NCBI RefSeq assembly: GCF_019720895.1
Contig: NZ_JAHKSH010000002.1
Span: forward strand, 124,001-188,000
From: Microbacterium salitolerans
GTDB taxonomy: Bacteria > Actinomycetota > Actinomycetes > Actinomycetales > Microbacteriaceae
Length of the DNA stretch: 64,000 nt
Direction of reading: 5' to 3'
The translations under genes and the position numbers were made by a program. Position 1 is the stretch's first letter. Each line of letters begins with the position of its first letter. Of the stretch, positions 30,609-46,631 are shown piece by piece. The notes under the pieces are model-generated. The model saw nothing but the letters and a program-made list of their open reading frames with translations, was not told the origin of the DNA and did not search any database.

Positions 30609-30975
30609 GGGGCTGATCGGTTTCGACAGCATCTGCCGATCTGAGGGAAGCGGGCCGAGGACGCAGGGTTATCTCGTAAACGCCCCCTGCAAACCAATAA
30701 GTGCCAACTCTAAGCGCACTGACTTCGCTCTCGCTGCGTAAGCGAGCCCGATAGTCCGTCAGACCGTGGGTGATCCCGCCACGGATCCTGGCGTCATCTA
30801 GGGATCTTGCTGTGACGTGGTGTCGAGACGCGTCACGGGACTTTTCTTCGACTGGGCTCGTCGATCTATGTGTCTGTGCTGAAGATCGGAGCCGAGCAGA
30901 ACGCCTCCACAGACTGCGCCCGGAGAAACCCCAGTGAACCAGTGCTGGACGGGGGTTCGATTCCCCCCAGCTCCA
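30609..30975 (+). ncRNA. ssrA: Transfer-messenger RNA (tmRNA)
   Basis: A one-piece tmRNA of about 367 nt that rescues stalled ribosomes. The 5' end GGGGCTGATCGGTTTCGACA pairs with the 3' acceptor end CAGCTCC, and the T arm GGGGGTTCGATTCCCCC is intact. The tag frame runs 30703-30741 and encodes ANSKRTDFALAA before TAA, an actinobacterial-type degradation tag. A -10-like TATCCT lies at about 30511, so a 5' leader is probably processed off. Its 3' end is the attachment site of the island that follows. Confidence 0.95.
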
Positions 30976-30995
30976 CGACCGCAACGCACCTGTGA
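30973..30995 (+). repeat. attL: 23-bp direct repeat at the ssrA 3' end
   Basis: The sequence starts CCACGACCGCAACG and ends CACCTGTGA. It is identical to 46609-46631. The first three bases are the last three of the mature tmRNA. The similarity continues imperfectly for another 50 bases through the terminator hairpin. Confidence 0.9.
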
Positions 30996-31058: not shown

Positions 31059-31815
31059 TCAGGAAACGGCGCCTGCCCACGTTTTTCCCACATCCGCTGC
31101 GACCGCGCGCTCGTTCAGCCGCGTCGCGACGTCGTCGACGTCGTCGTCGAACAGGTCGGCGTAGGTGTCGAGCGTCATCGCCGCGGACTTGTGCCCGAGC
31201 ATCCGCTGTACTGCCTTTACGTGCGCGCCCGACGCGATCGCGAGGGACGCCGCCGTGTGTCGCAGGTCGTGCGGCGCGATGCGCTCGATGCCCGTGGCCG
31301 TGACGGCGCGCGCGAACCACGATCCCGCCGCCTCGTCGGTCTTCGCTCGCCGGAGGTATCCGCCGGCGTCGTTCGCGAACACGAGATCGCTCGGCGCCTT
31401 GTTGGCCGTGAGCGACTCGAGCGGCTCGACGAGGAATCCGGGGAACGGGACAGTGCGCTTCTCCCACGACTTCGGCGGACCCACCTCGATCACGCCTTCC
31501 ACCTCCACAGCGGCGCGGTTCGCGTGCAGTCGCCGGCGCAGCATGTTCACGTCCTGCACGCGCAGTCCGATCGCCTCACTCCACCTGAGCCCGCCGTGGG
31601 CCAGCACCAGCACCAGAGTCGCGAGCATTGGCTCGCGCGTCGCGCTCGCGAGCTTCACGACCTCCGCGTCGCTCAGGTACCGTCGCGTCTACTTCGACTC
31701 CTTGCGAGGCAGATTCCGCGCGCCGCGCGCCGCATTCTTCGAGATACGCCGGTCACGCACAGCGACGTCGAGGATCCCCGCGAGCACGCCCACCGCCCGC
31801 AGCACCACCGTCGCC
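31059..31815 (-). pseudogene. int: Tyrosine integrase remnant (truncated, internal amber stop)
   Basis: The catalytic domain of a phage-type tyrosine recombinase is complete from 31658 down: HGGLRWSEAIGLRVQDV (first Arg), RIAPHDLRHTAASLAI (His-x-x-Arg), LGHKSAAMTLDTYADLF (His and nucleophile Tyr). Upstream in the same frame RRYLSDAEV follows an in-frame TAG (31689-31691). Before the stop, VLRAVGVLAGILDVAVRDRR and KNAARGARNLPRKESK are also integrase-like. The homology ends abruptly near 31815, so the arm-binding and most of the core-binding domain are gone. A protein starting at GTG 31658 would have the catalytic domain alone. Confidence 0.85.
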
Positions 31816-31977: not shown

Positions 31978-32214
31978 ATGCCGACCGTCGTATGGGTGCC
32001 CCTCGGCGTCGCGATCGTCGGCCTCGCGGGGACGGTGATCGGCATCGTCGCGGCGAAGTTCACGAAGTTCACCGCGCGCCTCGAAGCACTCGAACGCCGC
32101 CACCGCCTCTCGGGGCTGTACATCCGCAGCCTTATCGACCACGCCTACCGCAACAACGCGGTGCCGCTCCCGGATCCCCCGGACGGGTGGCTTGACGCTC
32201 TGAACGGAGACTGA
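31978..32214 (+). CDS. Small phage-type membrane protein (possible holin accessory)
   Basis: A 78-residue protein. One N-terminal membrane helix (residues 5-27, VWVPLGVAIVGLAGTVIGIV) is followed by a short coiled-coil-like stretch (ARLEALERRHRL). Small proteins of this kind follow endolysins in actinophage lysis cassettes. Start ATG at 31978, 12 nt after the lysin fragment's stop. Confidence 0.6.
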   Translation: MPTVVWVPLGVAIVGLAGTVIGIVAAKFTKFTARLEALERRHRLSGLYIRSLIDHAYRNNAVPLPDPPDGWLDALNGD

Positions 32215-32494: not shown

Positions 32495-32938
32495 CTACGA
32501 TCCGACGCGCGCCAGCTCTTGTGAAGCGGCAAACGCGGAAGACCACCATGTGCCCGCACGGGTTTGATACGCAAGCGGGACCATGCTCGAAACGACATCG
32601 GTCGCCCCGGAGGCGGCGTACTCGATACCCAGGCCCGTACTCGCCGCGTCGCCGGTGACCCCGAGCATCTCGGGCGGGAGGAAGACCCACTTTCCGTCGA
32701 ACGTGCGACGAAGTCCTTCGCCGAGGAATGCCTCGTACGCTTGGACAACGGAGTCGGGTATCTCTTCCGGAGTCGCCCATGTGTTGAGCATGTGCTGCTC
32801 GAGGGAGTCGAGGGAGTCTGCATTCCAGGGATCATCGACTTTTCGCGGCGCAAACGGCTCCAGCTGTGCCGCTTCGTCGAGGATCGTCGCGCAGCGATCA
32901 CGCCACTCGTCGATCGTGTATCCGTGTACGCGGCTCAT
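32495..32938 (-). CDS. Hypothetical cytoplasmic protein, second gene of a coupled pair
   Basis: A 147-residue acidic protein starting RVHGYTIDEWRDRCATILDE after the first Met. No signal peptide and no membrane segment are evident; there is a mildly hydrophobic stretch near residues 85-110 (MLGVTGDAASTGLGIEYAAS). I do not recognise the family. The ATG overlaps the stop of the upstream secreted-protein gene by ATGA, so the two are made together. The pair looks more AT-rich than the chromosome. Confidence 0.6.
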   Translation of the reverse strand: MSRVHGYTIDEWRDRCATILDEAAQLEPFAPRKVDDPWNADSLDSLEQHMLNTWATPEEIPDSVVQAYEAFLGEGLRRTFDGKWVFLPPEMLGVTGDAASTGLGIEYAASGATDVVSSMVPLAYQTRAGTWWSSAFAASQELARVGS

Positions 32939-33252
32939 CGAGGGACCACCACCCACACCTTGCCCATCTTGAGGCACTTCACCTTTGGCAGATCGGGGAA
33001 CGTGTTGTTGTAGAAGTCGCGCGCCGAGATGCACGCCGGCTTGGAGGTAAGCACCTTGATGACGCTTCCCCAGATCAGGGGCTGGACGGTCGCGTCAGAT
33101 TCTGTTTCGTTCGTTGCGACCAGGGAAGCCGACTGGACGGCACTCGGCGCGGCCGAGGAGGACTCCTCAGAAGCCATTGCTGGAGTGCTGGTGAGCACAC
33201 CAAGTGCGAGGGCGAACACTCCAGCGAGTGCCGCGATGCGCTTAGAAATCAA
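32935..33252 (-). CDS. Small secreted protein of unknown family
   Basis: About 105 residues from a TTG at 33252 (AAAGG 6 nt upstream). A clear Sec signal peptide (KRIAALAGVFALALGVLTST, cleavage after AMA) is followed by a Ser/Ala-rich spacer and a C-terminal core with two cysteines (KPACISARDFYNNTFPDLPK, then VKCLKMGKVWVVVPR). It has no recognised domain. It is coupled to a cytoplasmic protein gene, an arrangement seen in small exported effector/immunity pairs among others. A hairpin (GCCCCT/AGGGGC, 33274-33293) lies in its leader. Confidence 0.6.
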   Translation of the reverse strand: MISKRIAALAGVFALALGVLTSTPAMASEESSSAAPSAVQSASLVATNETESDATVQPLIWGSVIKVLTSKPACISARDFYNNTFPDLPKVKCLKMGKVWVVVPR

Positions 33253-33432
33253 AAGGTACCTTTCGTGTGATCCGCCCCTTGAGATTGAGGGGCCGCCTGA
33301 GGAAATGAGCAATCTCAGCCTATGGACTGACTATGCCCCCGTCTGTCCGGCTTTCGGATGACGAGCACCATCCGCCGTCAGGTTCGAGACAAGTGGCGCG
33401 CTTCGGAACCATGAAGAATCTCTGTGCCGGCC

Positions 33433-33478
33433 CAGTGCGGGAGCGCGAGTGCCCTCTGGTAGTCGCGCTCCCGCACTG
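33433..33478. repeat. Perfect 16-bp inverted repeat abutting the IS left end
   Basis: CAGTGCGGGAGCGCGA and its exact reverse complement flank a 14-nt loop. The right arm runs two bases into the IS left terminal repeat. It may be the insertion target or a pre-existing terminator; there is no T tract. Confidence 0.75.
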
Positions 33479-33541
33479 AACCGTCCCCGGTTTGAGGCCG
33501 TTTCCTTTCGAGTTTGGAAGGAAGATGGAGATCATGCCGAA

Positions 33542-33844
33542 GAGGATCCGGAGGAGACGAAGCAGCGTGCGATCCGGCTCGTGCTCGATCACCTCGATGA
33601 GTACCCGAACCTGACGTCCGCGTGCGAGACCGTCTCGAAGCGGTTGGGGTTCGGGGCCGAGTCGCTGCGTCGCTGGATGCGGCAGGCGCAGATCGATGGC
33701 GGGGAACGCCAGGGCGTGACGTCGAGCGAGTCAGAGCGGATGCGTCGGCTCGAACGGGAGAATCGCGAGTTGCGTGAGGCGAACACGATCCTCCGAGACG
33801 CTGCGGTTTTCTTCGCCGGGGAACTCGACCCCCGACGCCACTGA
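33542..33844 (+). CDS. IS3 OrfA (HTH protein), start out of frame
   Basis: The frame reads EETKQRAIRLVLDHLDEYPN, ACETVSKRLGFGAESLRRWM (helix-turn-helix) and a leucine-zipper-like LERENRELREANTILRDAAV. The natural starts, ATG at 33525 and 33534 behind GGAAGGAAG, are in another frame, so a one-base indel near 33540 separates start and body. The open frame extends back to a GTG at 33449, outside the IS. OrfA normally binds the terminal repeats and joins OrfB by frameshifting. Confidence 0.75.
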   Translation, partial: EDPEETKQRAIRLVLDHLDEYPNLTSACETVSKRLGFGAESLRRWMRQAQIDGGERQGVTSSESERMRRLERENRELREANTILRDAAVFFAGELDPRRH

Positions 33845-34806
33845 TCCTCGCGTTCATCGAGGAGCAGCGCGCAAGAGGCCGCACGGCCGGGTCGATCTGC
33901 AAGGTTCTGCGAGAGCAGGGCGTGCCGGTCGCCAAGCGGACACACCGGGCATGGAAACGTGCCCAGCCCAGCGACCGGGACCTCGCGGACGCGGTCGTCA
34001 TCGACGCGATCCGAGCCGTCCGAGTGAACGCGAACGGCGAGGCGACGCCGGAGTCGATGTATGGGCGGCGGAAGATGACCGCGCTGCTGCGCCGACAAGA
34101 CCTCGCGGTGTCAAAGCGGCAGGTCGATCGGCTGATGCGTGAGCTGCGGATCAACGGTCTCGTGCGCGGCAAGGGCGTGCGCACGACGGTCCCGGACCGC
34201 AACGCCGCTCGTGCACCTGATCTGCTGGATCGGGACTTCACCGCCCTCGCGCCGAATCGGCAGTGGGTCGCGGTCTTCACCTATGTGCGGACGTGGGCCG
34301 GGTTCGTCTATGTGTCGTTCGTGATCGACTGCTACTCGCGAGCGATCGTCGGGTGGCACGCCGCGACCGTGAAGACGACCCCGCTGGTGACCACCGCACT
34401 GCGGATGGGCCTATGGCGACGCGACCGCGCCGGCCACCCCGCCGAGGACGGACTGATCCATCACAGCGACGCGGGCTCGCAATTCACGAGCGTGTCATTC
34501 GCTGAGACGCTCTCCCTCGAAGGCATCGCTGCGTCGATCGGATCAATCGGCGACGCCTACGATAACGCCCTCGCCGAGTCGACAATCGGGCTGTTCAAGA
34601 ACGAAGCAATCCGTGACGGTTCACCGTTCCGGACCGGGCCACTTCGCACGACCGACGACGTCGAATGGGTCACCGCTGGATGGGTCGATTGGTTCAACGC
34701 GCGGCGCTTGCACTCGACTATCGGGGACGTCCCGTCCGACGAGTTCGAGGCCGCGTACTACGCTGGCCACGAAACGCCATCCCACCCGGTGCTGGCACCC
34801 GCATAG
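33808..34806 (+). CDS. IS3 OrfB transposase with a mutated catalytic residue
   Basis: A DDE/rve transposase read in the -1 frame after the TTTTC run at 33807-33811. The N-terminal part (LAFIEEQRARGRTAGSICKV) and HTH_21 region are intact. The catalytic triad should be D-D-E: the second D (IHHSDAGSQFTS) and E (DNALAESTIGLFKNE) are present. The first, expected in WVADFTYV, reads WVAVFTYV (codon GTC at 34273-34275). A T-for-A change explains it. The transposase is therefore probably inactive. Confidence 0.9.
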   Translation, partial: FLRRGTRPPTPLILAFIEEQRARGRTAGSICKVLREQGVPVAKRTHRAWKRAQPSDRDLADAVVIDAIRAVRVNANGEATPESMYGRRKMTALLRRQDLAVSKRQVDRLMRELRINGLVRGKGVRTTVPDRNAARAPDLLDRDFTALAPNRQWVAVFTYVRTWAGFVYVSFVIDCYSRAIVGWHAATVKTTPLVTTALRMGLWRRDRAGHPAEDGLIHHSDAGSQFTSVSFAETLSLEGIAASIGSIGDAYDNALAESTIGLFKNEAIRDGSPFRTGPLRTTDDVEWVTAGWVDWFNARRLHSTIGDVPSDEFEAAYYAGHETPSHPVLAPA

Positions 34807-34920
34807 GAGCGGTAAAGAACCGGGGACGGTTCAAATCCACTTCTGCGATCATCACCGGCGAGACTCCGCAATTGGCGACGCACCGATCAGCAGACTCAAC
34901 GACCTGCGTGGACGTCACAG

Positions 34921-35952
34921 CTAGGACTGGCCTGCGGTGCTGGCGCGTTCGATGATGCGGGCGTCGGGGGCTTCTCGCGGCGATCGCTGTGGTTCGGTGC
35001 CGAGAAGCCGTGCCGCCACCTGGCGCCCCGAGCCCGCTGAGTCGATGGAGATCGTAGTGAGTGGCGGTGAGAGGTAGCCGCTGAACGGCGCGTCGTCTAC
35101 GCCGATCAGTTGTGCGTTCGCCGGCACCATCAGGCCGACGTGCGGCAGCGTCGCGAGGGCGATCGCTGCGACCTCGTCGTCGAATGCGCAGAAGCCTGGC
35201 GCGTCGAGGGAGGCCAGGGGACGCAGTGCCGTCGCCGCCGTGTCGGAGTCGGTGTCGACCTCGATATATCTGGCGGGTGCCAGGGCTGCCGCTGCGCATG
35301 CGCGAAGCACGCCGTCGAATCGCGCGCGGGCGAGCAGGGCGCGAGGGTGCTCCGCGGCCGGCGCGATGTAGGTGATGGTCCGGCAGCCGAGTGAGATCAG
35401 GTGATCGGCCTGCAGGCGACCGATGTCGTTCTCCCATGGTCGAGGAAACGCCGGATCACCCTGAGCGGACGAGTATAGGCGAGGCACCCCGGCTGTGCGG
35501 ATGCGTGATAGGACATCTTCGCTGAGACCCGTCAGGTCGATGACGCCGAAGGGGCGGATCTCGTCGAGCAGCGCATGCAGTGCCTCGTCGGAGGCGTACT
35601 GGTGAGCCACCGGCACCAGGTCGTCTTCCGTGAGACGGTCGGAGATCGCACGGAGGAACGGTTCTGTGACATACCCGGTGAGAGCCGAGTCGGTGACGAG
35701 GACGACGATTCGCGAGTGCCCGCGACGCAGCGACGCGGCCGCCGCGCTCGGAACGTAGGCGAGTTCGACCGCGGCCGCGCGCACACGTGCTTTGGTCTCC
35801 TCCGGGATCGTCTGTCCAGGTGCGTTGTTGAGCACATAGCTGACGGTGGCCCTCGAGACGCCGCTGAGGCGGGCGACGTCGGCTGCCGTCACTCGTCGGC
35901 GCTGCGCCTTCTTGTCTTGCTCGTTCACCCCCTCAGTATTGCGGATGATCAT
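34921..35952 (-). CDS. LacI family transcriptional regulator
   Basis: About 343 residues from ATG 35952 (an in-frame ATG at 35973 is possible). The HTH is VTAADVARLSGVSRATVSYV (about residues 20-39) with NNAPGQTIPEETKARVRAAA as hinge. The periplasmic-binding-like sensor domain follows (IVVLVTDSALTGYVTEPFLR) to a C-terminal DDAPFSGYLSPPLTTISID. It is divergent from the ABC importer genes, so it is the likely sugar-responsive repressor of that operon. Confidence 0.93.
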   Translation of the reverse strand: MIIRNTEGVNEQDKKAQRRRVTAADVARLSGVSRATVSYVLNNAPGQTIPEETKARVRAAAVELAYVPSAAAASLRRGHSRIVVLVTDSALTGYVTEPFLRAISDRLTEDDLVPVAHQYASDEALHALLDEIRPFGVIDLTGLSEDVLSRIRTAGVPRLYSSAQGDPAFPRPWENDIGRLQADHLISLGCRTITYIAPAAEHPRALLARARFDGVLRACAAAALAPARYIEVDTDSDTAATALRPLASLDAPGFCAFDDEVAAIALATLPHVGLMVPANAQLIGVDDAPFSGYLSPPLTTISIDSAGSGRQVAARLLGTEPQRSPREAPDARIIERASTAGQS

Positions 35953-35980
35953 CTCGCCCTCGTCGGCCGGCACTTCATGC

Positions 35981-36009
35981 TTGCACGATTAAGTGCGTGA
36001 CATTAGTGT
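35981..36009 (+). promoter_or_regulatory. Promoter and candidate LacI operator of the importer operon
   Basis: TTGCAC (35981-35986) and TAGTGT (36004-36009) are spaced 17 nt and face the solute-binding protein gene. GCAC-GATTAA-GTGC (35983-35996), a symmetric element, overlaps the -35. This is the expected place for repression by the divergent LacI protein. Confidence 0.5.
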
Positions 36010-36057
36010 AGGCGTCGCGCCCGACCTGCGGGTGCGATCGCATACAAAGGGGTATCG

Positions 36058-37611
36058 ATGCGAAACCACCGAACAACTGGACGAAACCGTCGTCTGTCGG
36101 CCGCAGCAGGAGTCGTGGCGGCGGCGCTCGCACTCACCGCATGCACTGGATCGTCGACGCCGGGGCCGGACGACGTGGACGACAGGGACTACTCGGTCCT
36201 CAACCTTGCGGCGTCGACGCCGCCCGCATCATGGGACCCGGCGATGCAGCTCAGCGCGTTCGACGGGGTCTGGCAGTGGACCGCCGTCTACGACACTCTG
36301 CTCACGTGCGAAGAGGACGGTACGGTCGGTCCGGGTGCCGCTGAATCGTTCGAGTTCACGGACAACAATACAGTTCTGTCTCTGAATCTGCGGGAGGGGA
36401 TGACGTTCGAGGACGGTTCGCCCGTCGACGCGGAGGCCGTGAAGGCATCCATCGAGCACATGCAGACGGGGGGCGGATCCGGCGCCGTTCGCGTCGCAGA
36501 CGTGAGCGTCGACGCGCCAGACGAGCGGACGGTCGTTCTGGCCGCCGACGCGCCGCGCGGTCTGCTCGCGACGTACATGTGTCTGAGCCCCGGCATCGTG
36601 GCATCGCCCGAGGCGATCTCGTCGCCCGACGTCGACTCGGCTCCCCTCAGCTCAGGCCCTTACAGGCTCGACGCGGCTAGCTCGACGACGGGCTCGGTGT
36701 TGACGTTCGAGAAGCGCGACGACTATTGGAACGCCGATGCATACCCGTACGAGAAGCTCGTCATCAACATCATGCCCGATGAGACGGCGCGCCTGAACGC
36801 GCTGAAGACGGGGCAGGTCGACGGTGCGGTGATCGGCGCGCAGGCGGTGGCTGAGGCTGAGGCATCGCAGCTGGCGATCACCGAATGGACGGATGCGACG
36901 AACGGCATCGTCATCTTCGATCGCGCGGGCGAGATCGTGCCAGCTCTCGGCGATGTTCGCGTGCGGCAGGCGATGAACATGGTGTTCGATCGCGACGCCA
37001 TCGTCACGGGGCTGTTCGACGGGCGCGCGAAGCCGACGGGGCAGATGTTCGCGCCAGGCTCCGAGGCGTACGACGAATCGTTCGATTCCACGTACAGCTT
37101 CGACGTCGACGCCGCGAGAAAGCTCATGGCGGATGCGGGCTATGCCGACGGGTTCGAAGTCGAGATCCCCTCGCGTACGCCGCAGACCGACCAGGCGAAC
37201 CCGCTGATCGTGCAGCAGCTGGGTGAGATCGGCATCACTGTCACTGAGACGCCCCTCGCCGCGGCGTCAGCCGTCCCGGAGATCCTGAGCGGACGCTTCG
37301 CCATGACGTACATCAGCATGCCGCTGTCATCGTCGCTGTGGAACATCAACCAGTCGATGGGCCCTGATGCTACGTGGAACACATTGGGCGTCGCCGAGCC
37401 GGAGCTCACAGAGCTCATCGAGCGAGCCGAGTCGGCCCAGGGTGACGAGCTCGTCGATGTCACTCATGCCGTCAACGAGTACATGGTGGACAACGCCTGG
37501 TTCATCCCGTGGAACCTCCGCACCGCGTACTTTGCGACCGGTGCGGGAACCACGGTTCTTGGCACCCCGGACCCGTACTTCCAGGTGCCGCAGCTGCGGT
37601 CGTTCGAGTAA
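36058..37611 (+). CDS. ABC transporter solute-binding lipoprotein (SBP_bac_5 family)
   Basis: A 517-residue extracellular lipoprotein. The leader ends LALTACTG, a lipobox with Cys at about residue 29. The mature part follows the DppA/OppA family 5 pattern: LNLREGMTFEDGSPVDAEAV (about residues 117-136), GPYRLD, and VRVRQAMNMVFDRDAIVTGL (about 300-319). Family 5 proteins bind peptides but also oligosaccharides; the neighbouring rhamnosidase and sulfatase favour a sugar ligand here. AAAGGGG precedes the ATG at 36058. First gene of the operon. Confidence 0.93.
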   Translation: MRNHRTTGRNRRLSAAAGVVAAALALTACTGSSTPGPDDVDDRDYSVLNLAASTPPASWDPAMQLSAFDGVWQWTAVYDTLLTCEEDGTVGPGAAESFEFTDNNTVLSLNLREGMTFEDGSPVDAEAVKASIEHMQTGGGSGAVRVADVSVDAPDERTVVLAADAPRGLLATYMCLSPGIVASPEAISSPDVDSAPLSSGPYRLDAASSTTGSVLTFEKRDDYWNADAYPYEKLVINIMPDETARLNALKTGQVDGAVIGAQAVAEAEASQLAITEWTDATNGIVIFDRAGEIVPALGDVRVRQAMNMVFDRDAIVTGLFDGRAKPTGQMFAPGSEAYDESFDSTYSFDVDAARKLMADAGYADGFEVEIPSRTPQTDQANPLIVQQLGEIGITVTETPLAAASAVPEILSGRFAMTYISMPLSSSLWNINQSMGPDATWNTLGVAEPELTELIERAESAQGDELVDVTHAVNEYMVDNAWFIPWNLRTAYFATGAGTTVLGTPDPYFQVPQLRSFE

Positions 37612-37632
37612 CGCGCTGAAAGGGGAGCACTG

Positions 37633-38574
37633 ATGCTCGGTTTCATCATCAGAAGACTCGCGTCGAGCATTCTGCTTGCCCTTGCGGTGGCGTTTGCCTC
37701 ATTCGCGTTGGTCTTTAGCAACGGGCAGGCGATCGCCCGTACGATTCTCGGCGTCGACGCGACCGATGAGCAGGTCGCCGCACGTGCAGCGGAGCTGGGG
37801 CTCGACAGGCCCGTTGTCGCGCAGTTCCTGGACTGGCTGGGCGCCGCATTCAGAGGTGATCTGGGAACCAGCTTCTATTCGGGGGACGATGTCGCGAACA
37901 TCATGACGACGAGGATTCCGGTGACGCTCGCACTCATCGGTATCGCCATGCTGCTCACGGCTGTGCTCAGCGCACTGCTCGGCATCGCGGCGGCCGTCGC
38001 GGGCGGATGGGTCGACAAAGTGTTGCAGGTGCTTGCGATGGTCGGAACAGCCGTGCCGAACTTCATCGTCGCGATCATCCTGGTGATGTCGCTGGCGGTG
38101 GGCACTGGGACGTTCCCCGCGACCGGATACGTCTCTCCGGCCATCGATATTGCAGGGTGGGCGTCGAGCCTCGTGCTTCCTGTGATCGCTGTCACTGCGG
38201 CGTCGGTCGGACCGGCGTCGCAACAGTTTCGCGCAGCGGTCAAAGATGTGCTCGAACGCGACTTCGTGCGTACTCTCCGCTCGCGCGGGATGCGCCCTGC
38301 ATCCATCGTATTCCAGCACGTGTTTCGAAATGCCGCGGGACCAGGAATCATCATTCTCGGCCTGCAGATCATCGTTCTGATGAGCGGCGTCGTGGTGATC
38401 GAGCGGGTATTCGCGCTGCCGGGCGTCGGTGAGCTGACAGTGAACAGCGCTCTGCTCGGCGACATCCCCATCGTGATGGGTTGCGTGCTGTTCGTCGTCG
38501 TGGTCGTCGTCATCGTCAACCTCGTCGCCGACCTCGCGAACGCGGCGCTCAACCCGAAAGTGAGGCAGCGATGA
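37633..38574 (+). CDS. ABC transporter permease (DppB type)
   Basis: A 313-residue inner-membrane permease with six helices. It has the DppB N-terminus (MLGFIIRRLASSILLALAVA), the large extracytoplasmic loop, and the EAA-like contact region (FVRTLRSRGMRPASIVFQHV, about residues 216-235). AAAGGGGAG lies 9 nt before the ATG. Its stop overlaps the next start by ATGA. Confidence 0.92.
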   Translation: MLGFIIRRLASSILLALAVAFASFALVFSNGQAIARTILGVDATDEQVAARAAELGLDRPVVAQFLDWLGAAFRGDLGTSFYSGDDVANIMTTRIPVTLALIGIAMLLTAVLSALLGIAAAVAGGWVDKVLQVLAMVGTAVPNFIVAIILVMSLAVGTGTFPATGYVSPAIDIAGWASSLVLPVIAVTAASVGPASQQFRAAVKDVLERDFVRTLRSRGMRPASIVFQHVFRNAAGPGIIILGLQIIVLMSGVVVIERVFALPGVGELTVNSALLGDIPIVMGCVLFVVVVVVIVNLVADLANAALNPKVRQR

Positions 38575-40304
38575 ACGCCACGCCGCCGACCACGGTCACA
38601 CTCATGACAGCGCCTGAGGAACAGCGCACGAGCACGATCGTGCGCTTCCTGAGGAACCCGCTCGGTCTGGTCTCGCTCATCGTGCTGCTGTTGCTCGCGG
38701 TTGTGGCTGCCCTCGCGCCCTGGATCGCGCCCTTCGACCCGAACGCGACCCGCGTCGAGCTCACGAACGCCCCGCCGATGAGCGAAGGGTACATTCTCGG
38801 AGGCGACTCGGCCGGACGCGACGTGCTGTCGCGGCTGATCTGGGCCGCGCGAGGAACGTTCGTCGCCGCTGTGATTGTGCTGGTTGTGTCGCTGGTGGTC
38901 GGCGTTGTGCCGGGCCTCATCGCCGGATACTTCGCAGGCCCCGTGCAGACCGTGGGCAACTGGCTCGCGGACGCGGTGCTCGCGCTGCCGGGTGTCGTGC
39001 TGCTGATCGCGATGTATGCGGTCATCGGACCGAACATCCTGCTCGCGATGTCGATCTACGGAGTGCTCGTGGCGCCGATCTTCTATCGACTGGTCCGCGG
39101 CGTCGTAGCCAGCGTGCGCAACGAGCTCTACATCGACGCCGCGAAAGTGTCGGGGCTGACCGACCTGCGCATCATCGTCCACCACGTGCTGCGCGCCGTG
39201 CGCTCGCCCATCATCATCCAGAGTGCGTTTATTCTTGGCACGGCCATCGGCATCCAGGCAACGCTTGAGTTCCTCGGTCTTGGTAGCCCGCGCGAGCCTT
39301 CCTGGGGCGGCATGCTCGACCTCGCCTTCCGAAACATCTACGCCTCGATGAGTGGCGTCATCTGGCCAGCGATTGTTATTACGGTGACGGTCAGCGCCTT
39401 CGTGCTGCTCGGCAATGCGTTGCGCGACGCCCTTGATCCCTCGTCGAAACGGCGCCGGTTGTCGCCTAGAAGGGCGCGGACGCTGGAGGTTGCGCCCGCA
39501 GAGGCGCCGGCCACCAGGTCATTGCTCGACGTGCGCGGGCTACGGGTGGCCTATCCGATCGGGCGCGATGACGTGCGCGAAGTGGTCAGCGGCGTCGACC
39601 TCTCGGTGCGCAAGGGCGAGGTGCTCGGGCTCGTCGGAGAGTCGGGATCCGGCAAGTCCCAGACGGCGTTCGCGATTCTCGGACTGCTGCCGCAGAACGC
39701 ACTCGTCACCGGCGGATCGGTGGTGTTCGATGGCACGCAGATCTTGAACCGGTCCGTGGGGATGCGTTCCGTTCGAGGCACGCGCATCGCCTACGTGCCG
39801 CAGGAGCCGATGACGAACCTCGACCCGAGCATGACCATCGGCGTGCAGATGGTGCGCTGGATGCGTGCTGTTCGCAAGGTCTCGCGTGCAGACGCGCTGA
39901 GCCGATCGATCGACCTGCTCGCGCGCGTCGGCATCCACGACCCTGCTGATGTCGTGCGCAAGCACCCGCACGAGATATCCGGCGGCATGGCTCAGCGGGT
40001 GCTCATTGCCGGCGCCGTCGCGTCTGAACCCGAGCTGATCATCGCCGACGAGCCGACGACAGCGCTCGATGTGACCGTTCAGGCCGAGATCCTCGATCTG
40101 CTGCGCGAGCTGCGAGACGAGCGCGGACTCGCGGTCGTCATCGTCACCCACAATCTCGGCGTCGTGTCGGACATCTGCGACCGCGTCGCCGTCATGAAGA
40201 GCGGCAAGATCGTCGAGACCGCGTCCGCCCGCGATTTCCTCGCCGGGCCATCCCACGAGTACTCCCGCGCTCTTCTCGACGCGGTTGTGGAGGTAGAGCG
40301 ATGA
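38571..40304 (+). CDS. Fused ABC permease (DppC type) and ATPase (DppD type)
   Basis: A 577-residue protein joining two importer subunits. Residues 1-290 are a DppC permease (SGRDVLSRLIWAARGTFVAA-like ILGGDSAGRDVLSRLIWAAR, about 79-98; EPSWGGMLDLAF near 245). After a basic linker, residues 320-577 form an ATPase with Walker A GESGSGKSQ, Q-loop VPQEPMTNLDPSM, signature ISGGMAQRV, Walker B LIIADEPTTALD and the switch His (VTHNLG). The C-terminal oligopeptide extension is short. Fusions of this kind occur in actinobacterial Dpp systems. Coupled to both neighbours by ATGA. Confidence 0.93.
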   Translation: MNATPPTTVTLMTAPEEQRTSTIVRFLRNPLGLVSLIVLLLLAVVAALAPWIAPFDPNATRVELTNAPPMSEGYILGGDSAGRDVLSRLIWAARGTFVAAVIVLVVSLVVGVVPGLIAGYFAGPVQTVGNWLADAVLALPGVVLLIAMYAVIGPNILLAMSIYGVLVAPIFYRLVRGVVASVRNELYIDAAKVSGLTDLRIIVHHVLRAVRSPIIIQSAFILGTAIGIQATLEFLGLGSPREPSWGGMLDLAFRNIYASMSGVIWPAIVITVTVSAFVLLGNALRDALDPSSKRRRLSPRRARTLEVAPAEAPATRSLLDVRGLRVAYPIGRDDVREVVSGVDLSVRKGEVLGLVGESGSGKSQTAFAILGLLPQNALVTGGSVVFDGTQILNRSVGMRSVRGTRIAYVPQEPMTNLDPSMTIGVQMVRWMRAVRKVSRADALSRSIDLLARVGIHDPADVVRKHPHEISGGMAQRVLIAGAVASEPELIIADEPTTALDVTVQAEILDLLRELRDERGLAVVIVTHNLGVVSDICDRVAVMKSGKIVETASARDFLAGPSHEYSRALLDAVVEVER

Positions 40305-41131
40305 TGGCCGCACCGCTGCTCGAGATCCGTGATCTCCACGTGACCTATCGTGGTCCACGACGTCAACGCAAGCACGTGATCCAGGGCGTCGACCTGACGG
40401 TTCGCGAAAGCGAGACCGTCAGCCTCGTCGGCGAATCCGGGTCGGGCAAGAGCACGATCGGGCGCGCCGTCCTGGGCCTCGCCCCCGTCGCTGCCGGCGG
40501 GATCAGCTTCGACGGAACGGATCTGGCGGGACTCTCGCGATCCAGCAGGCGGCGCGCGACCGTCGGGCTGCAGGCGATCTTCCAGGATCCCTATTCGTCG
40601 CTGAACCCCGCGATGACGGTCAGCGACATTCTGAGCGAACCGCTCGTCGTGCGGGGTGTTCGAGGCGCCCGTGAACGGGTGAAGCGACTGCTCGATGATG
40701 TCGAGCTTCCCTCCGACGCCGGCGATCGCCTTGCGAGCGAGTTTTCCGGCGGACAGAGACAGCGCATCGCCATCGCCCGAGCTCTCGCGCTCGAGCCGCG
40801 ACTGATCGTGTGCGATGAGCCGACCAGCGCGCTCGACGTGTCGACCCAGGCGCGCATCCTGACGCTCCTGCAAGAGCTCCAAGGGCGTACGGGCGTGGCC
40901 TATCTCTTCATCAGTCACGACCTCGGCGTCGTGCAGCGCATCAGCGACAGGATCGCCGTGCTGAAGGCCGGAGAGATCGTGGAGGACGGCGACGCGAATC
41001 GGGTGATCACGCGGCCCGAGCACCCGTACACGAAGCGGTTGCTGCTCGCGACGCCCGCCGTCGACCCCGACGAACAGGCGCGGCGCAGGGCGGAGCGCCA
41101 CCGGGTGAAGGCCGAGGAAAGCGGTGCATGA
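40301..41131 (+). CDS. ABC transporter ATP-binding protein (DppF type)
   Basis: A 276-residue ATPase, the second nucleotide-binding subunit. Walker A is GESGSGKSTIGR (about residues 45-56), Q-loop FQDPYSSLNPAMTV (about 96-109), signature FSGGQRQR (about 148-155), Walker B LIVCDEPTSALD (about 168-179) and the switch His in ISHDLGV. HPYTKRLLLATPAVDPDEQA near the end is the oligopeptide ABC C-terminal motif. It overlaps the rhamnosidase start by 8 bp. Confidence 0.93.
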   Translation: MMAAPLLEIRDLHVTYRGPRRQRKHVIQGVDLTVRESETVSLVGESGSGKSTIGRAVLGLAPVAAGGISFDGTDLAGLSRSSRRRATVGLQAIFQDPYSSLNPAMTVSDILSEPLVVRGVRGARERVKRLLDDVELPSDAGDRLASEFSGGQRQRIAIARALALEPRLIVCDEPTSALDVSTQARILTLLQELQGRTGVAYLFISHDLGVVQRISDRIAVLKAGEIVEDGDANRVITRPEHPYTKRLLLATPAVDPDEQARRRAERHRVKAEESGA

Positions 41132-43625
41132 TGGTCGAGGCCGAGACGGCACGGACGCGCGCAACGACTCATGGCGCGGTCAGTGGATTGGAGTCGCCGA
41201 CGACGAGAGCACTCATGAGTTGACACGGGCGGCGTTCAGGCGCACCGTCGCGTTTGACGACGTGCCGGCCACCCTGCCCATTCGAGTCTCCGCCGATGCC
41301 CGCTACGTCCTGTGGGTGAACGGGCGGGAGATCGGGCGCGGTCCGGTGCGATCGCAGCCCGCGCGCTGGACCTACGACGAGTACGACATCGCGCCTGCGC
41401 TGCGCGAGGGCGACAACGTGATCGGCGCACTCGTGACGTACTACGGCGAGGACAACGCGGTATGGCAAAGAGCCCGCGTCGAGCGAGGCCTCGGGGCAGT
41501 CGCCGCACTGGTGTTCGACGCACCTGACGAGTGGCAGGAACTCGTGACGAACGGCGAGTGGACCGCGCAGCGGATCGACGCATGGGAGCCGGTGCCCAGC
41601 GAGGGCAAGCTCGGGTCCCTGCCGATCGAGGTGATCGATCACCGTAGGATCGACGGCACGTGGACGACGAGCACCGACGCCCCCGAGTGGCCGCGGGCCC
41701 AGGTTCTGCGAGCTCGACACGCCGGCGCCTACCGACGGTCGACGCCTCCGGCGCACCCCTACGGGGCTCTGCACCCGCGTGGCATCGCGGCGCTCACGGG
41801 GGAGCGCATTGCACCCCGAGACGTTCGCGGAGCCGTGCGACCAGACTGCGGCCCTGTCGAGCTCGTCGCGGGGGCGCGGGAACTCGCCGCCTCGATGCGC
41901 TCCGCGCTCCATTGGTGCGAACTCGATGAGACGACGCGAGTACCGGATGGTGGCGCGCACGTCGTCGAGGTCGATTTCGGGCGCATCGTGGCGGGCTTCG
42001 TCGAGTTCGACCTCGAGGCGCCGGAGGGCACCGTCGTCGACCTCGCTTACCTCGAGCGCGAACTGCTGGCAGCCGGAGGTGACCAGCGCTATCTTCCGCG
42101 GGCCGGCGCAAGAGTGATCGCGGGGCAGGGACGCACAGCGTTCCGGGCGCTGGAGACGAACGGCCTCCGGTACATCGCAATGGTCATCCGGCCATCGGCC
42201 GCGGCCGACGTCCGAATGCGGAACCTGCGTGTGCGCGAGCACCTCTACCCCGTCGCGGACGAGGCCTCGTTCGCCTCGAGTGATTCCGAACTCGAACGGC
42301 TCTGGCACGCCGGGATGCGAACGGTGCAGCTCAACTCGGTCGACGCGTTCACCGACTGCCCGACCCGAGAGCAGCGTGCATGGACGGGCGATGCCGTCGT
42401 GCACATCGGAGTGCACCTCGCCACGAACTCCGACTGGCGCCTGGTGCGCCGTCATCTCGAGCTCGGAGACTCCCCACGTTCCGACGGACTGCTGCCCATG
42501 TCGGTGGCCGGCGACATCGAGTCGGACGGCGGGTTCTCGATTCCTGACTGGTCGCTGCACTGGGTGCACGCTGTGTGGATGTATGCGCGCGCGTCGGGCG
42601 ACCGCGAGTTCATCCTGCACCGGATGCCGTCGATCGCGCGCGTGCTGGCCTGGTTCGGCCAGTTTGAAGATGCCACAGGCGTGCTCGCGGACGTGCCGGA
42701 GTGGCCGTTGGTCGACTGGTCGAGCGTGTTCACCTCTGGGCGCAGCTCGATTCTGACCGGCCTGTGGGCGCGAGCACTGAGCGAGTACGGCGAGCTGAGC
42801 CGATGGGTCGGCAACTCGGGCGACGCCGCGCGCGCCGCGGTGGCTCTCGCACGTGCCGCGCGAGGGTACGAGGCATTCTGGTGCGAGGAGCGCGGGGTTT
42901 ACGTCGACCATGTCGTGGGCGGCGAGCGGCAGCCTGCGGCCTCTCAGGCGGCCAATGCGGCGGCGATCGTCAGCGGCATTGTGCCGCGGCATCGCCATGC
43001 GCGCATCGTCGGCGCGATGACGGATGAAACCCGCCTCGTCACGCGCGGCTGGAACGCGCCGTCGCCCGAGATCGGCCTCGAACAGAAAGTGCGCGACCGT
43101 GTCGAGGGCGTGCGTCGCGTCGACTGGGACGTCGACCGCGAGATCGTGCGCGCCGAGCCGTTCTTCTCCGCTGTCGTGCACGACGCGATCGCGCAGGCAG
43201 GGCACGCCGCACTGCTCCCTGATCTGCTGAGGAGATGGAGCCGCTACCTGGTCGACGGATACGACACGTTCGGCGAGTGCTGGGAGTGGGGCACTCCGAG
43301 CCACGGTTGGAGCAGTTCGCCCACTCGAGATCTCATCGTGCATGTGCTGGGCGTGCAGCCGCCGGCGCTCGACGAACGGGCATACGTCGTCGCGCCTGCG
43401 CAGACCGACATCTCGCGGATCGAGGCGACGGTGCCGACGACGGCCGGTTCGATCCGTGCCGAGGTCGTCCACGGGGTGCTGGCGATCAGCACCCCGGTGC
43501 ATGTGGTCGTGCGCGCGTGGGACGGCACGGAGCGCGAGCTGCCACCTGGGCGACACACCGTCGGCCTCGGTTCGATGAACTCGGCACCTCTGGCGGCCAG
43601 CAGTGCGACGAAGGAGACGATATGA
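41124..43625 (+). CDS. Alpha-L-rhamnosidase (GH78 family)
   Basis: An 833-residue glycoside hydrolase. N-terminal beta domains (about residues 10-390) include RVSADARYVLWVNGREIGRG. The catalytic six-hairpin domain begins near 395 with FASSDSELERLWHAGMRTVQ, and contains DCPTREQRAWTGDA (about 412-425), the GH78 acidic motif, and GDIESDGGFSIPDWSLHW. A C-terminal beta domain follows. No signal peptide is present, so it acts in the cytoplasm on imported oligosaccharides. The GTG start at 41124 (AGGA upstream) is the one in frame; the nearby ATGs at 41128-41133 are not. Confidence 0.88.
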   Translation: MHDGRGRDGTDARNDSWRGQWIGVADDESTHELTRAAFRRTVAFDDVPATLPIRVSADARYVLWVNGREIGRGPVRSQPARWTYDEYDIAPALREGDNVIGALVTYYGEDNAVWQRARVERGLGAVAALVFDAPDEWQELVTNGEWTAQRIDAWEPVPSEGKLGSLPIEVIDHRRIDGTWTTSTDAPEWPRAQVLRARHAGAYRRSTPPAHPYGALHPRGIAALTGERIAPRDVRGAVRPDCGPVELVAGARELAASMRSALHWCELDETTRVPDGGAHVVEVDFGRIVAGFVEFDLEAPEGTVVDLAYLERELLAAGGDQRYLPRAGARVIAGQGRTAFRALETNGLRYIAMVIRPSAAADVRMRNLRVREHLYPVADEASFASSDSELERLWHAGMRTVQLNSVDAFTDCPTREQRAWTGDAVVHIGVHLATNSDWRLVRRHLELGDSPRSDGLLPMSVAGDIESDGGFSIPDWSLHWVHAVWMYARASGDREFILHRMPSIARVLAWFGQFEDATGVLADVPEWPLVDWSSVFTSGRSSILTGLWARALSEYGELSRWVGNSGDAARAAVALARAARGYEAFWCEERGVYVDHVVGGERQPAASQAANAAAIVSGIVPRHRHARIVGAMTDETRLVTRGWNAPSPEIGLEQKVRDRVEGVRRVDWDVDREIVRAEPFFSAVVHDAIAQAGHAALLPDLLRRWSRYLVDGYDTFGECWEWGTPSHGWSSSPTRDLIVHVLGVQPPALDERAYVVAPAQTDISRIEATVPTTAGSIRAEVVHGVLAISTPVHVVVRAWDGTERELPPGRHTVGLGSMNSAPLAASSATKETI

Positions 43626-45292
43626 ACCACGAGCAGAAGCAGCCGGGCGGTCGCCCGAACGTCCTGGTGATCCTCACGGACGAGTGGCGGGCGCACAACA
43701 CCGGCTACGCGGGCGACCCGCACGTCCGCACCCCGAACATCGATCGTCTGGCCGCGGAAGCCGTCGACTTTACGCAGGCCGTGTCCGGCGAGCCGATCTG
43801 CTGCCCTGCGCGCGCCAGCTTCGTCACGGGGCAGTACCCGACCGAGCACGGCGTCTACATCAACGATGTGCCGCTGGAGCCCGAGGGCACCACGGTGGCC
43901 GAGGCCTTCGCGCAGCACGGGTACCGCACCGGATACATCGGCAAGTGGCACCTCCACGGAAGCCCCGACGGGCGCTTCGAGCGCCGGAACGAGTACATTC
44001 CGCCCGAGGCGCGTCTTGGGTTCGAGCACTGGGCCGTTCTGGAATGCACTCATGACTACAACGACTCGGCGTACTATCTCGGCGATGACCCGATCAGACG
44101 CCGCTGGGAGGGGTACGACGCCTTCGACCAGACCGATGCGGCGCTGGACTTCATGGGCTCAGAGGGAGAAGACCCGTTCTTCCTGATGCTCTCTTACGGG
44201 CCCCCGCACTTTCCACTGCAGACGGCGCCGGAACGGTTCCGTCAGATGTACGCGGAGGAGCGGATCGCGCTGCCGGACAACGTTCCGACGTGGGCCGCGG
44301 AGCGAGCGACGGAGGACCTGCGCGGCTACTACGCCCATATCGCCGCGCTCGATGAGTGCGTCGGACGTCTGCTCGAGGGCGTCGACGCCTCGAACACCGT
44401 CATCGCCTTCACATCTGACCACGGAGACATGCTCTGGTCGCAGGGAATCGAGCACAAGCTGAACCCCTGGGAGGAAGCGGTCCGCGTGCCGCTGCTCGTG
44501 AAGGCTCCCGGCCGCGCAGCCGAGAGAACCGACCAGCTGTTCAACAGCCCCGATCTGATGCCGACGCTTCTCGGCTTCGCAGGGCTACCTGTGCCGGAAT
44601 CTGTCTCCGGGCTGGATATGTCTCGACGTGAGACCAGTCCAGCGACAGCTTTCCTGAGCGCTCCTGTGGCGTACTCGAGCATGCGCCGCTACGGGCTCGA
44701 CGAGTACCGCGGAGTGCGCGATGCGCGCTACACCTACGTGCGAACGCGCCGAGGGCCGTGGCTGCTCTACGACAACCGGGCCGATCCGGCCCAGCTGCAC
44801 AACCGCTGCGACGATCCCGCCCTGGCTGAGGAGCAGACGCGTCTCGACGCTGAACTCAACGCGTGGCTCGAGAAGCTCGGCGATGAGTTCGCCCCCGGGG
44901 ACGAGTACCTCCGCAGGGACGGGCTCGAGCACTACTTTGAGGTCAACGAACCCGTCGGTGCCAGCGGCACCGACGGGTGGACGTCTCCCGATCCGCGCGG
45001 TCGGCGCTACGGAGTCGACACGCAAATCGCCGCGATCCTCGCGAACCCTGCCGCATGCGCGGTCGTAGAGGAGCTCGCACCGGCCCTGCTCGCGTCGGAC
45101 GACGCCCTGTTCCCGCGGCGATCGCTGCGACTGCTGGCCATGGCCGACCCCGAGCGGCTACCCACCGCGCTCCTCGGTCGCCTTGACGCACGGCTCGCCC
45201 GACTGGGCGAGCGGAGCACCGCAGAAGGCGAGGGGGCGGCCCTCCCGGCCTGGCCGGCGCCCGTACGATTGACGCCCGCGCACACCGTGTGA
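43622..45292 (+). CDS. Type I (formylglycine) sulfatase
   Basis: A 556-residue sulfatase of the alkaline-phosphatase superfamily. NVLVILTDEWRAHNTGYAGD (about residues 13-32) holds metal ligands; the formylglycine motif CCPARASFVTGQYPTEHG (CxPxR, Cys about 60) is intact. GYIGKWHLHG (about 104-113), a HFPLQ element, and FTSDHGDMLWSQGIEHK (about 262-278) complete the active site. There is no signal peptide, so it should act in the cytoplasm. It overlaps the rhamnosidase stop by ATGA. The C-terminal 100 residues (after about 455) are an extra region I do not recognise. It would remove sulfate from a rhamnose-containing substrate; this link is inferred from the operon. Confidence 0.9.
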   Translation: MNHEQKQPGGRPNVLVILTDEWRAHNTGYAGDPHVRTPNIDRLAAEAVDFTQAVSGEPICCPARASFVTGQYPTEHGVYINDVPLEPEGTTVAEAFAQHGYRTGYIGKWHLHGSPDGRFERRNEYIPPEARLGFEHWAVLECTHDYNDSAYYLGDDPIRRRWEGYDAFDQTDAALDFMGSEGEDPFFLMLSYGPPHFPLQTAPERFRQMYAEERIALPDNVPTWAAERATEDLRGYYAHIAALDECVGRLLEGVDASNTVIAFTSDHGDMLWSQGIEHKLNPWEEAVRVPLLVKAPGRAAERTDQLFNSPDLMPTLLGFAGLPVPESVSGLDMSRRETSPATAFLSAPVAYSSMRRYGLDEYRGVRDARYTYVRTRRGPWLLYDNRADPAQLHNRCDDPALAEEQTRLDAELNAWLEKLGDEFAPGDEYLRRDGLEHYFEVNEPVGASGTDGWTSPDPRGRRYGVDTQIAAILANPAACAVVEELAPALLASDDALFPRRSLRLLAMADPERLPTALLGRLDARLARLGERSTAEGEGAALPAWPAPVRLTPAHTV

Positions 45293-45562: not shown

Positions 45563-45668
45563 GTCCCGCCCGACGAGTTCGAAGTCGCGTTCTACGCCGA
45601 CCTCGAAACACCGGATCCCATCCGGTGCTGGCACCCGCATAGGAGCGGCAGAGAACCAGGGACGGTTC
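45563..45668 (+). mobile_element. Right-end remnant of a related IS3 element
   Basis: This stretch matches the last 105 bases of the IS at 33.5-34.8 kb with scattered changes. It has the end of orfB (CCGACGAGTTCGA, then GGTGCTGGCACCCGCATAGG) and the terminal-repeat region (GAACCAGGGACGGTTC). The orfB end is frameshifted. It is in the same orientation as the intact copy, on the far side of the sugar operon. Confidence 0.85.
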
Positions 45669-46608: not shown

Positions 46609-46631
46609 CCACGACCGCAACGCACCTGTGA
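46609..46631 (+). repeat. attR: 23-bp direct repeat
   Basis: Identical to 30973-30995. Removing the island by recombination between the two copies would place ssrA directly before the hairpin at 46636-46675. Confidence 0.9.

Follow-up and report, generated by a model that had tools for sequence, protein, structure and literature searches.

An Opp-type import operon that may deliver a sulfated rhamnoside to a cytoplasmic sulfatase and GH78 enzyme in Microbacterium salitolerans

What does Microbacterium salitolerans take up through an ATP-binding cassette (ABC) importer whose genes run directly into those for a rhamnosidase-type hydrolase and a sulfatase? The question is raised by seven genes at 34921–45292 of a 64,000-nucleotide stretch of its genome, the whole of which we call the window. 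The answer that we consider probable, on the evidence of sequence, is that the operon would import a small sulfated oligosaccharide or glycoside containing L-rhamnose, which would be desulfated in the cytoplasm before its rhamnose is released. Open reading frames (ORFs) and family profiles agree on the gene set that an earlier, sequence-only reading had proposed. A LacI-family regulator (34921–35973, minus strand; PF00356 and PF13377, with an ATG also 7 codons inside) is divergent from six genes on the plus strand. These encode a family-5 solute-binding lipoprotein, SBP_bac_5 (36058–37611; PF00496, 1.1e-61), a permease of OppB/DppB type (BPD_transp_1; 37633–38574), an OppC-type permease fused to an OppD-type ATPase (OppC_N/BPD_transp_1 plus ABC_tran; 38571–40304), an OppF-type ATPase (ABC_tran with oligo_HPY; 40301–41131), a GH78 α-L-rhamnosidase-type hydrolase (41124–43625; PF17389, PF08531 and PF05592) and an S1-type formylglycine sulfatase (43622–45292; PF00884). 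The parts of an Opp/Dpp (family 5) importer are thus complete: binding protein, two permease domains and two ATPase domains. The lipoprotein and permease genes are separated by 21 bases, and the five genes from permease to sulfatase overlap successively by 4, 4, 8 and 4 bases, which bears out the claim of a coupled operon. Chance ORFs are ruled out, the whole gene order being kept in other species.

What are the two enzymes, and where would they work? The hydrolase matches profiles of the six-hairpin catalytic domain and of N-terminal domains: PF17389 (2.3e-25), PF08531 (6.5e-9) and, exactly at the cut-off, PF05592. Its residues E416, D423, D531 and E718, which we take to be the catalytic acidic set of GH78, are invariant in an alignment of 16 sequences. 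It is predicted to be an α-L-rhamnosidase-type hydrolase that releases rhamnose. The alignment with its best solved match, RhaB (2okx), spans both the N-domain and the catalytic domain, but RhaB, presumably that of Bacillus sp. GL1 with a gellan-derived substrate, is a distant relative with a different substrate. The sulfatase matches PF00884 at 1.6e-52, and its C60-C-P-A-R fits the motif C/S-x-P-x-R; P62 and R64 are invariant in 34 aligned rows, and C60 is found in at least 90% of them. In two relatives in its clade (L086 and L125) the formylglycine Cys is replaced by Ser (S-x-P-x-R); sulfatases of this Ser type are matured anaerobically. The lipoprotein begins with a hydrophobic segment (best 13-residue mean 2.17) and shows LTAC, which resembles a lipobox. 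The starts of the GH78 enzyme and the sulfatase are not hydrophobic (0.05 and 0.33), in agreement with the earlier claim that neither carries a signal peptide. Two clade sulfatases and one GH78 enzyme from Bacteroidota have hydrophobic starts (means 2.2–2.5), and two acidobacterial clade sulfatases are intermediate (1.1–1.4). Cytoplasmic location therefore appears, in the few proteins examined, to track with importer operons.

How would such an operon work? Brought in on a prophage-derived island, it would supply a lipoprotein to capture a sulfated, rhamnose-containing molecule; the Opp-type ABC importer, with its fused permease-ATPase, would then take this in whole. A formylglycine-generating enzyme (FGE) encoded elsewhere in the genome would mature the sulfatase, which in the cytoplasm would clear the non-reducing end of its blocking sulfate; the GH78 enzyme could then free L-rhamnose, which would enter the genome's own RhaM/RhaI/RhaD pathway. 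LacI would repress this one operon through an operator at 35980–35995. In this scheme we infer the substrate, the order of the two enzymes and the repression by LacI. Ulvan or rhamnan sulfate would be only one candidate source of the imported molecule.

Is the operon peculiar to this strain? It is not. Of 367 genomes of the genus, 15 encode a GH78 relative (E of 1e-20 or better), and of 398 genomes of the family 14 encode a close one (1e-100). Both counts include the strain's own genome. We mapped the neighbourhoods of the 14 matches in the genus other than that of the window. All seven genes are present, at 51–76% identity, in three of them: Microbacterium sp. HD4P20 (G246), Microbacterium salsuginis (G147) and a third genome (G168). 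The set is complete also in Phytoactinopolyspora endophytica, which belongs to a different family, the Jiangellaceae. The Phytoactinopolyspora sulfatase falls among those of Microbacterium, in one group with the G168 protein (support 94/71), a pattern that transfer between genera would produce. A further genome (G319) has the operon, operator included, with the other six genes kept and no adjacent sulfatase. In most genes this operon is the closest of all to that of the window, and its genome has only a weak FGE match. The absence of the sulfatase may be a secondary loss, and may mean that importer and GH78 enzyme also serve an unsulfated form of the substrate. At the remaining ten loci the operon was not seen in the stretch examined, one of which (L031) begins at a contig end. 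At four other GH78 loci of the genus (L033–L035 and L038) the gene adjoins genes that resemble, by eye, a type-B carboxylesterase and a sugar symporter. Among the titles and opening lines of abstracts listed from the open-licence literature on sulfatases with rhamnosidases or GH78 in Actinobacteria or Microbacterium, on ulvan, on rhamnan sulfate and on ABC or oligopeptide transporters, no such operon was found described.

Is the regulator dedicated to this operon? Operators of LacI type are typically palindromes with a central CG. The predicted operator, CTTGCACGATTAAGTG, lies at 35980–35995 (plus strand), and in relatives it takes the palindromic form ACTT...CG...AAGT. The pattern CTTGYACGWTTMARTR stands between the LacI and lipoprotein genes in all 6 orthologous operons. 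It was derived from these same six operons; the informative part is its absence elsewhere and the single exact copy in the genome. When 198 loci were scanned, the 7 matches were the five other operons, two places being counted twice, and the pattern was absent from the other 191. The site at 35980–35995 is the only exact copy in the genome, where near matches number 7, the exact one included, against 7 for the reversed pattern. Since the exact site is single and near matches are no commoner than in the control, we conclude that the LacI protein probably regulates only this operon through the predicted site.

Does the genome supply what the operon lacks? The sulfatase-maturing enzyme on which the proposed scheme depends was looked for and found: an FGE is encoded at C5:310648 (E 1.7e-81; PF03781, 1.9e-81). 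All four of the sulfatase-carrying genomes tested have one. The genes rhaM, rhaI (C5:313673) and rhaD (C5:321352) lie, with that for FGE, within 13 kb, and the earlier statement that rhamnose catabolic genes are absent is therefore wrong for the genome. In another Microbacterium (G230) related LacI and GH78 genes are found within about 7 kb of rhaI and rhaD. A second Opp transporter of the fused type (35–60% identity) is also encoded on C5, where it adjoins two sulfatases and an ORF with a GH3 domain; a third sulfatase and the FGE follow further on. Across some 34 kb (C5:289013–323367) there are a canonical GH78 enzyme, two GH3-domain ORFs, three sulfatases, the second Opp transporter, FGE, rhaM, rhaI and rhaD. 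This region may be the strain's principal locus for sulfated glycans. No polysaccharide lyase, ulvan lyase or GH105/GH88 enzyme was found among the 13 window ORFs scanned with Pfam, a scan that did not extend to the rest of the window and genome.

What company does the transporter keep elsewhere? We examined 8 plasmid relatives, among 15 records listed of 2812 binding-protein matches. The four-gene transporter layout is present in all 8, the fused gene being split in one (L215). Within 9 kb there are GH78 genes in 2, a sulfatase with FGE in 2 and GH3 in 5, so that 6 of the 8 stretches contain GH78, GH3 or sulfatases; none of these glycosidases and no sulfatase was found within 9 kb in the other two (L217 and L218). 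Fused permease-ATPase importers of the Opp/Dpp type that are annotated as dipeptide, oligopeptide or nickel transporters thus share the layout of the window, and 6 of the 8 stretches around their kin also contain glycosidases or sulfatases, no search having been made for peptidases. The neighbourhoods of these six would point to glycans rather than peptides. On a plasmid of Neorhizobium petrolearium (L213) an importer, three sulfatases, GH3, FGE and an anaerobic sulfatase maturase occupy one locus. A further case is a plasmid (NZ_CP109982.1) of Halocatena marina, a haloarchaeon from an intertidal zone, which carries on one strand two Opp-type permeases, a double ATPase, a GH78 enzyme and a sulfatase. 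A xylanase and other genes separate the permeases from the double ATPase, and a small gene or two precede GH78. Identity to the window is 24–36% for the transporter, and 27% and 39% for the enzymes; tblastn with the window lipoprotein found no binding protein at this locus. Other bacteria share the arrangement, and an archaeon has a looser version of it.

Does the sulfatase itself point to rhamnose? Its closest solved structures by single sequence are 2qzu, a putative sulfatase, then 9ihk (S1_30A) and 6j66; by profile they are 2qzu, then 8di0, with 6j66 third and 6s21 fourth. The chondroitin 4-O-endosulfatases 6j66 and 6s21 are the nearest solved sulfatases with names that tell an activity, and both act on sugars; 2qzu, 8di0 and 9ihk score equally well or better. 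We take 6s21 to be BT3349, of subfamily S1_27. BT3349 is described as an S1_27 chondroitin/dermatan 4-O-sulfatase (PMC6994673), and S1_25 as the rhamnose-3-sulfatase of ulvan breakdown (PMC8511951, PMC9096561). An enzyme of S1_25, the SulfAtlas subfamily of rhamnose/fucose 3-sulfatases, is not the nearest solved relative: 6hr5 ranks 28th by single sequence (88 bits) and 10th by profile (208 bits). The sulfatase also falls far under the cut-offs of the NCBIfam arylsulfatase and choline-sulfatase models. The link to rhamnosides rests on gene neighbours, not on the sulfatase's own kin.

What, then, are those neighbours? We took the best 80 of 347 relatives from a scan of named genomes as the loci of the clade; its members are spread over 11 named phyla or candidate phyla. 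GH78 adjacency was scored with a profile built from 28 sequences, the window's own included, and then extended with hits. A GH78 match lies in the stretch examined at 18 of the 80 loci, and within 1 kb at 11. A limit of 1.5 kb likewise gives 11 of 80; for 30 other sulfatase loci, all from one and the same bacterial family and several of them perhaps not formylglycine sulfatases, it gives 0. On a tree of 81 sulfatases (L120, too long, was omitted, and the label of L073 comes from a weak match, 9e-6) the 17 GH78-adjacent rows require 8 changes; the mean after shuffling is 15.7, and 0 of 500 shuffles was as low. Adjacent same-strand genes of at least 150 residues, with a gap of at most 400 bases, numbered 83 from 69 of the 80 loci. 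Among the 79 that were scanned, sulfatases account for 14, GH78 for 9 and each other glycosidase family for 2 or fewer, and apart from sulfatase-like genes no family is commoner than GH78. Streptomyces acidicola has a row of MFS transporter, sulfatase, GH78, FGE and sugar transporter genes with a LacI gene upstream. An acidobacterial locus has a GH106 rhamnosidase about 2 kb off, and the L086 locus holds a distant GH106 relative. In Runella (L109, L117 and L124) the next gene after the clade sulfatase encodes a protein of about 1200 residues in which a second sulfatase is fused to GH78. We advance only tentatively, and with slightly more doubt than belief, the wider idea that the clade is a hitherto undescribed lineage of S1 enzymes acting on L-rhamnose sulfate, in which a rhamnosidase partner has been gained or lost many times. 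In Actinomycetota and at least one haloarchaeon the pair would act in the cytoplasm on what an Opp-type importer brings in, and import before breakdown would be a general route for sulfated rhamnosides outside marine Bacteroidota.

Several findings weigh against the import and stepwise breakdown of a sulfated rhamnoside. The hydrolase is distant from characterised members of GH78, even from its best solved match 2okx; it reaches PF05592 only at the cut-off, and scores 25 bits against an NCBIfam model whose cut-off is 1800. The sulfatase is closer to chondroitin 4-sulfatases than to S1_25. A sulfatase of its type stands near only 3 of the 14 GH78 relatives in the genus, in the stretch examined, and the operon of G319 does without one. 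At 62 of the 80 clade loci there is no GH78 in the stretch examined, some of these stretches being short. Finally, a strong FGE match (E of 1e-55 or better) is not rare in the genus: 27 of 59 genomes have one, the strain's own included, and its presence is weak evidence.

Might the sulfatase instead attack an adjacent sugar (xylose, a uronic acid or a hexosamine) of the oligosaccharide that is taken up, leaving GH78 to remove unsulfated rhamnose? The affinity with the chondroitin 4-O-endosulfatases 6j66 and 6s21 would favour this, as would G319, which keeps the rest of the operon without a sulfatase, and Runella, where the clade sulfatase stands beside a separate fused sulfatase-GH78 and so need not itself desulfate rhamnose. 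But GH78 is the sole glycosidase of the operon, with no second one for another sugar, and the commonest glycosidase beside the sulfatase's kin; we regard the proposal as unlikely. Equally the substrate could be a sulfated small natural glycoside, such as a sulfated flavonoid or saponin rhamnoside of halophytes, rather than a fragment of an algal polysaccharide, with importer and enzymes acting as we propose. No lyase was found among the 13 window ORFs scanned; two hosts, Microbacterium salsuginis and Phytoactinopolyspora endophytica, bear names that hint at saline or plant habitats, though as names only; and GH78 and GH3, families that also strip plant glycosides, share stretches with the importer's plasmid kin. 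A further sulfatase at 32 of the 80 clade loci, on the other hand, resembles the breakdown of polysaccharides, and this proposal too we consider doubtful.

That the ABC system imports peptides or metal chelates, the two enzyme genes being merely co-located, seems to us very improbable. The binding protein, permease and ATPases do match oligopeptide and nickel models, all those shown lying below the cut-offs. The plasmid relative L217 has a carboxylesterase and an M20 peptidase at the edge of its stretch, and neither it nor L218 yielded a glycosidase or a sulfatase. Against this, 5 operons from two families (Microbacteriaceae and Jiangellaceae) preserve the order of all seven genes, the genes overlap, 6 of the 8 stretches around the transporter's relatives contain glycosidases or sulfatases, and the genome encodes another such transporter next to sulfatases. 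A pure peptide importer was rejected. Import followed by desulfation and rhamnose release in the cytoplasm, as the sequence-only reading had it, remains the best-supported account, by virtue of the recurring operon, the GH78 neighbours and the FGE, with the correction that rhamnose catabolism does exist in the strain.

How did the operon reach its present position? A tmRNA gene (30609–30976, plus strand; ARAGORN) is the integration target of an island. A repeat search found a 23-base direct repeat at the 3' end of this gene (attL, 30973–30995, plus), comprising the tmRNA end and downstream DNA and followed by a terminator-like hairpin; all 23 bases are identical in a second copy at 46609–46631 (attR, plus). 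Inside lies an integrase remnant (31059–31658, minus; PF00589, 8.7e-24; phrog_1, 2.1e-36) that retains the catalytic part only, an upstream stop breaking the frame. Repeat and remnant uphold the claim that the operon sits on an island. The island also holds a small phage-type membrane protein (31978–32214, plus; phrog_26963, 1.7e-6), and two ORFs at 32495–33312 (minus) that match neither Pfam nor PHROGs, one with a secretion-like stretch by eye. An element with 16-base inverted ends and two transposase ORFs (33477–34833, plus; HTH_Tnp_1 and rve), which we presume to be of IS3 type, precedes the operon; a second, diverged copy (45563–45668, plus) follows it as a right-end remnant. A recent composite transposon is unlikely, the copies differing (84–93% identity) and the second being only a right end. 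We suggest that the island is a decayed prophage which received the operon later. An empty integration site could not be read in relatives, where the right flank matches other genomes piecewise (at best 298 bases at 73%). Viral contigs yielded no relative of the operon; near matches on plasmids (20 of 45 records listed) fall within ATPase genes, except one to the insertion sequence. In Microbacterium sp. HD4P20 a tRNA-Ser gene (L027 6707–6796) lies about 600 bases from the end of the operon and may mark a second integration site.

How does the proposed route compare with those already described? The characterised route for sulfated rhamnose belongs to marine Bacteroidota, whose enzymes are exported. 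In the ulvan pathway of Formosa agariphila the protein P36 is a fusion of an S1_25 sulfatase and GH78, and Rha3S is desulfated by S1_25 before GH78 acts (PMC8511951). Desulfation of the non-reducing-end rhamnose followed by release through GH78 is the logic proposed here for the window pair, and the fused protein of Runella has the same pair of domains as P36. The window enzymes, however, are separate proteins that lack signal peptides and depend on an ABC importer in the proposed route; S1_25 is not a near relative of the sulfatase, and no lyase or GH105 of such a pathway is found among the island ORFs scanned. The chondroitin/dermatan 4-O-sulfatases 6j66 and 6s21 differ in another way: the partner of the window sulfatase is GH78, and no glycosaminoglycan lyase or GH88 is found among the island ORFs scanned. 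Haloarchaea provide a precedent for import first. Their use of glycosaminoglycan disaccharides, in the portion of the report available, resembles the proposed route in its ABC import of small fragments, intracellular cleavage and a sulfatase in the gene set, but it starts from hyaluronan or chondroitin and employs a glycosaminoglycan lyase, GH88 and GH154, with no GH78-sulfatase operon described there (PMC13260240). In Verrucomicrobiota, loci for sulfated methyl-pentoses set rhamnosidases (GH78 and GH106) amid sulfatases; these are large, with galactosidases and microcompartments, and that report, as far as it was accessible, describes no compact importer operon (PMC8857213).

The recurrence of the gene plan across bacteria and an archaeon makes the prediction testable. 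If it is correct, the sulfatase and GH78 enzyme would form a small, expressible enzyme pair, and a function would be assigned to a sulfatase clade that spans 11 named phyla or candidate phyla. Sulfated rhamnosides would then feed Actinomycetota too, by way of a compact, regulated and transferable import-first operon, and perhaps, if the names of its hosts are a guide, in saline soils and plants.

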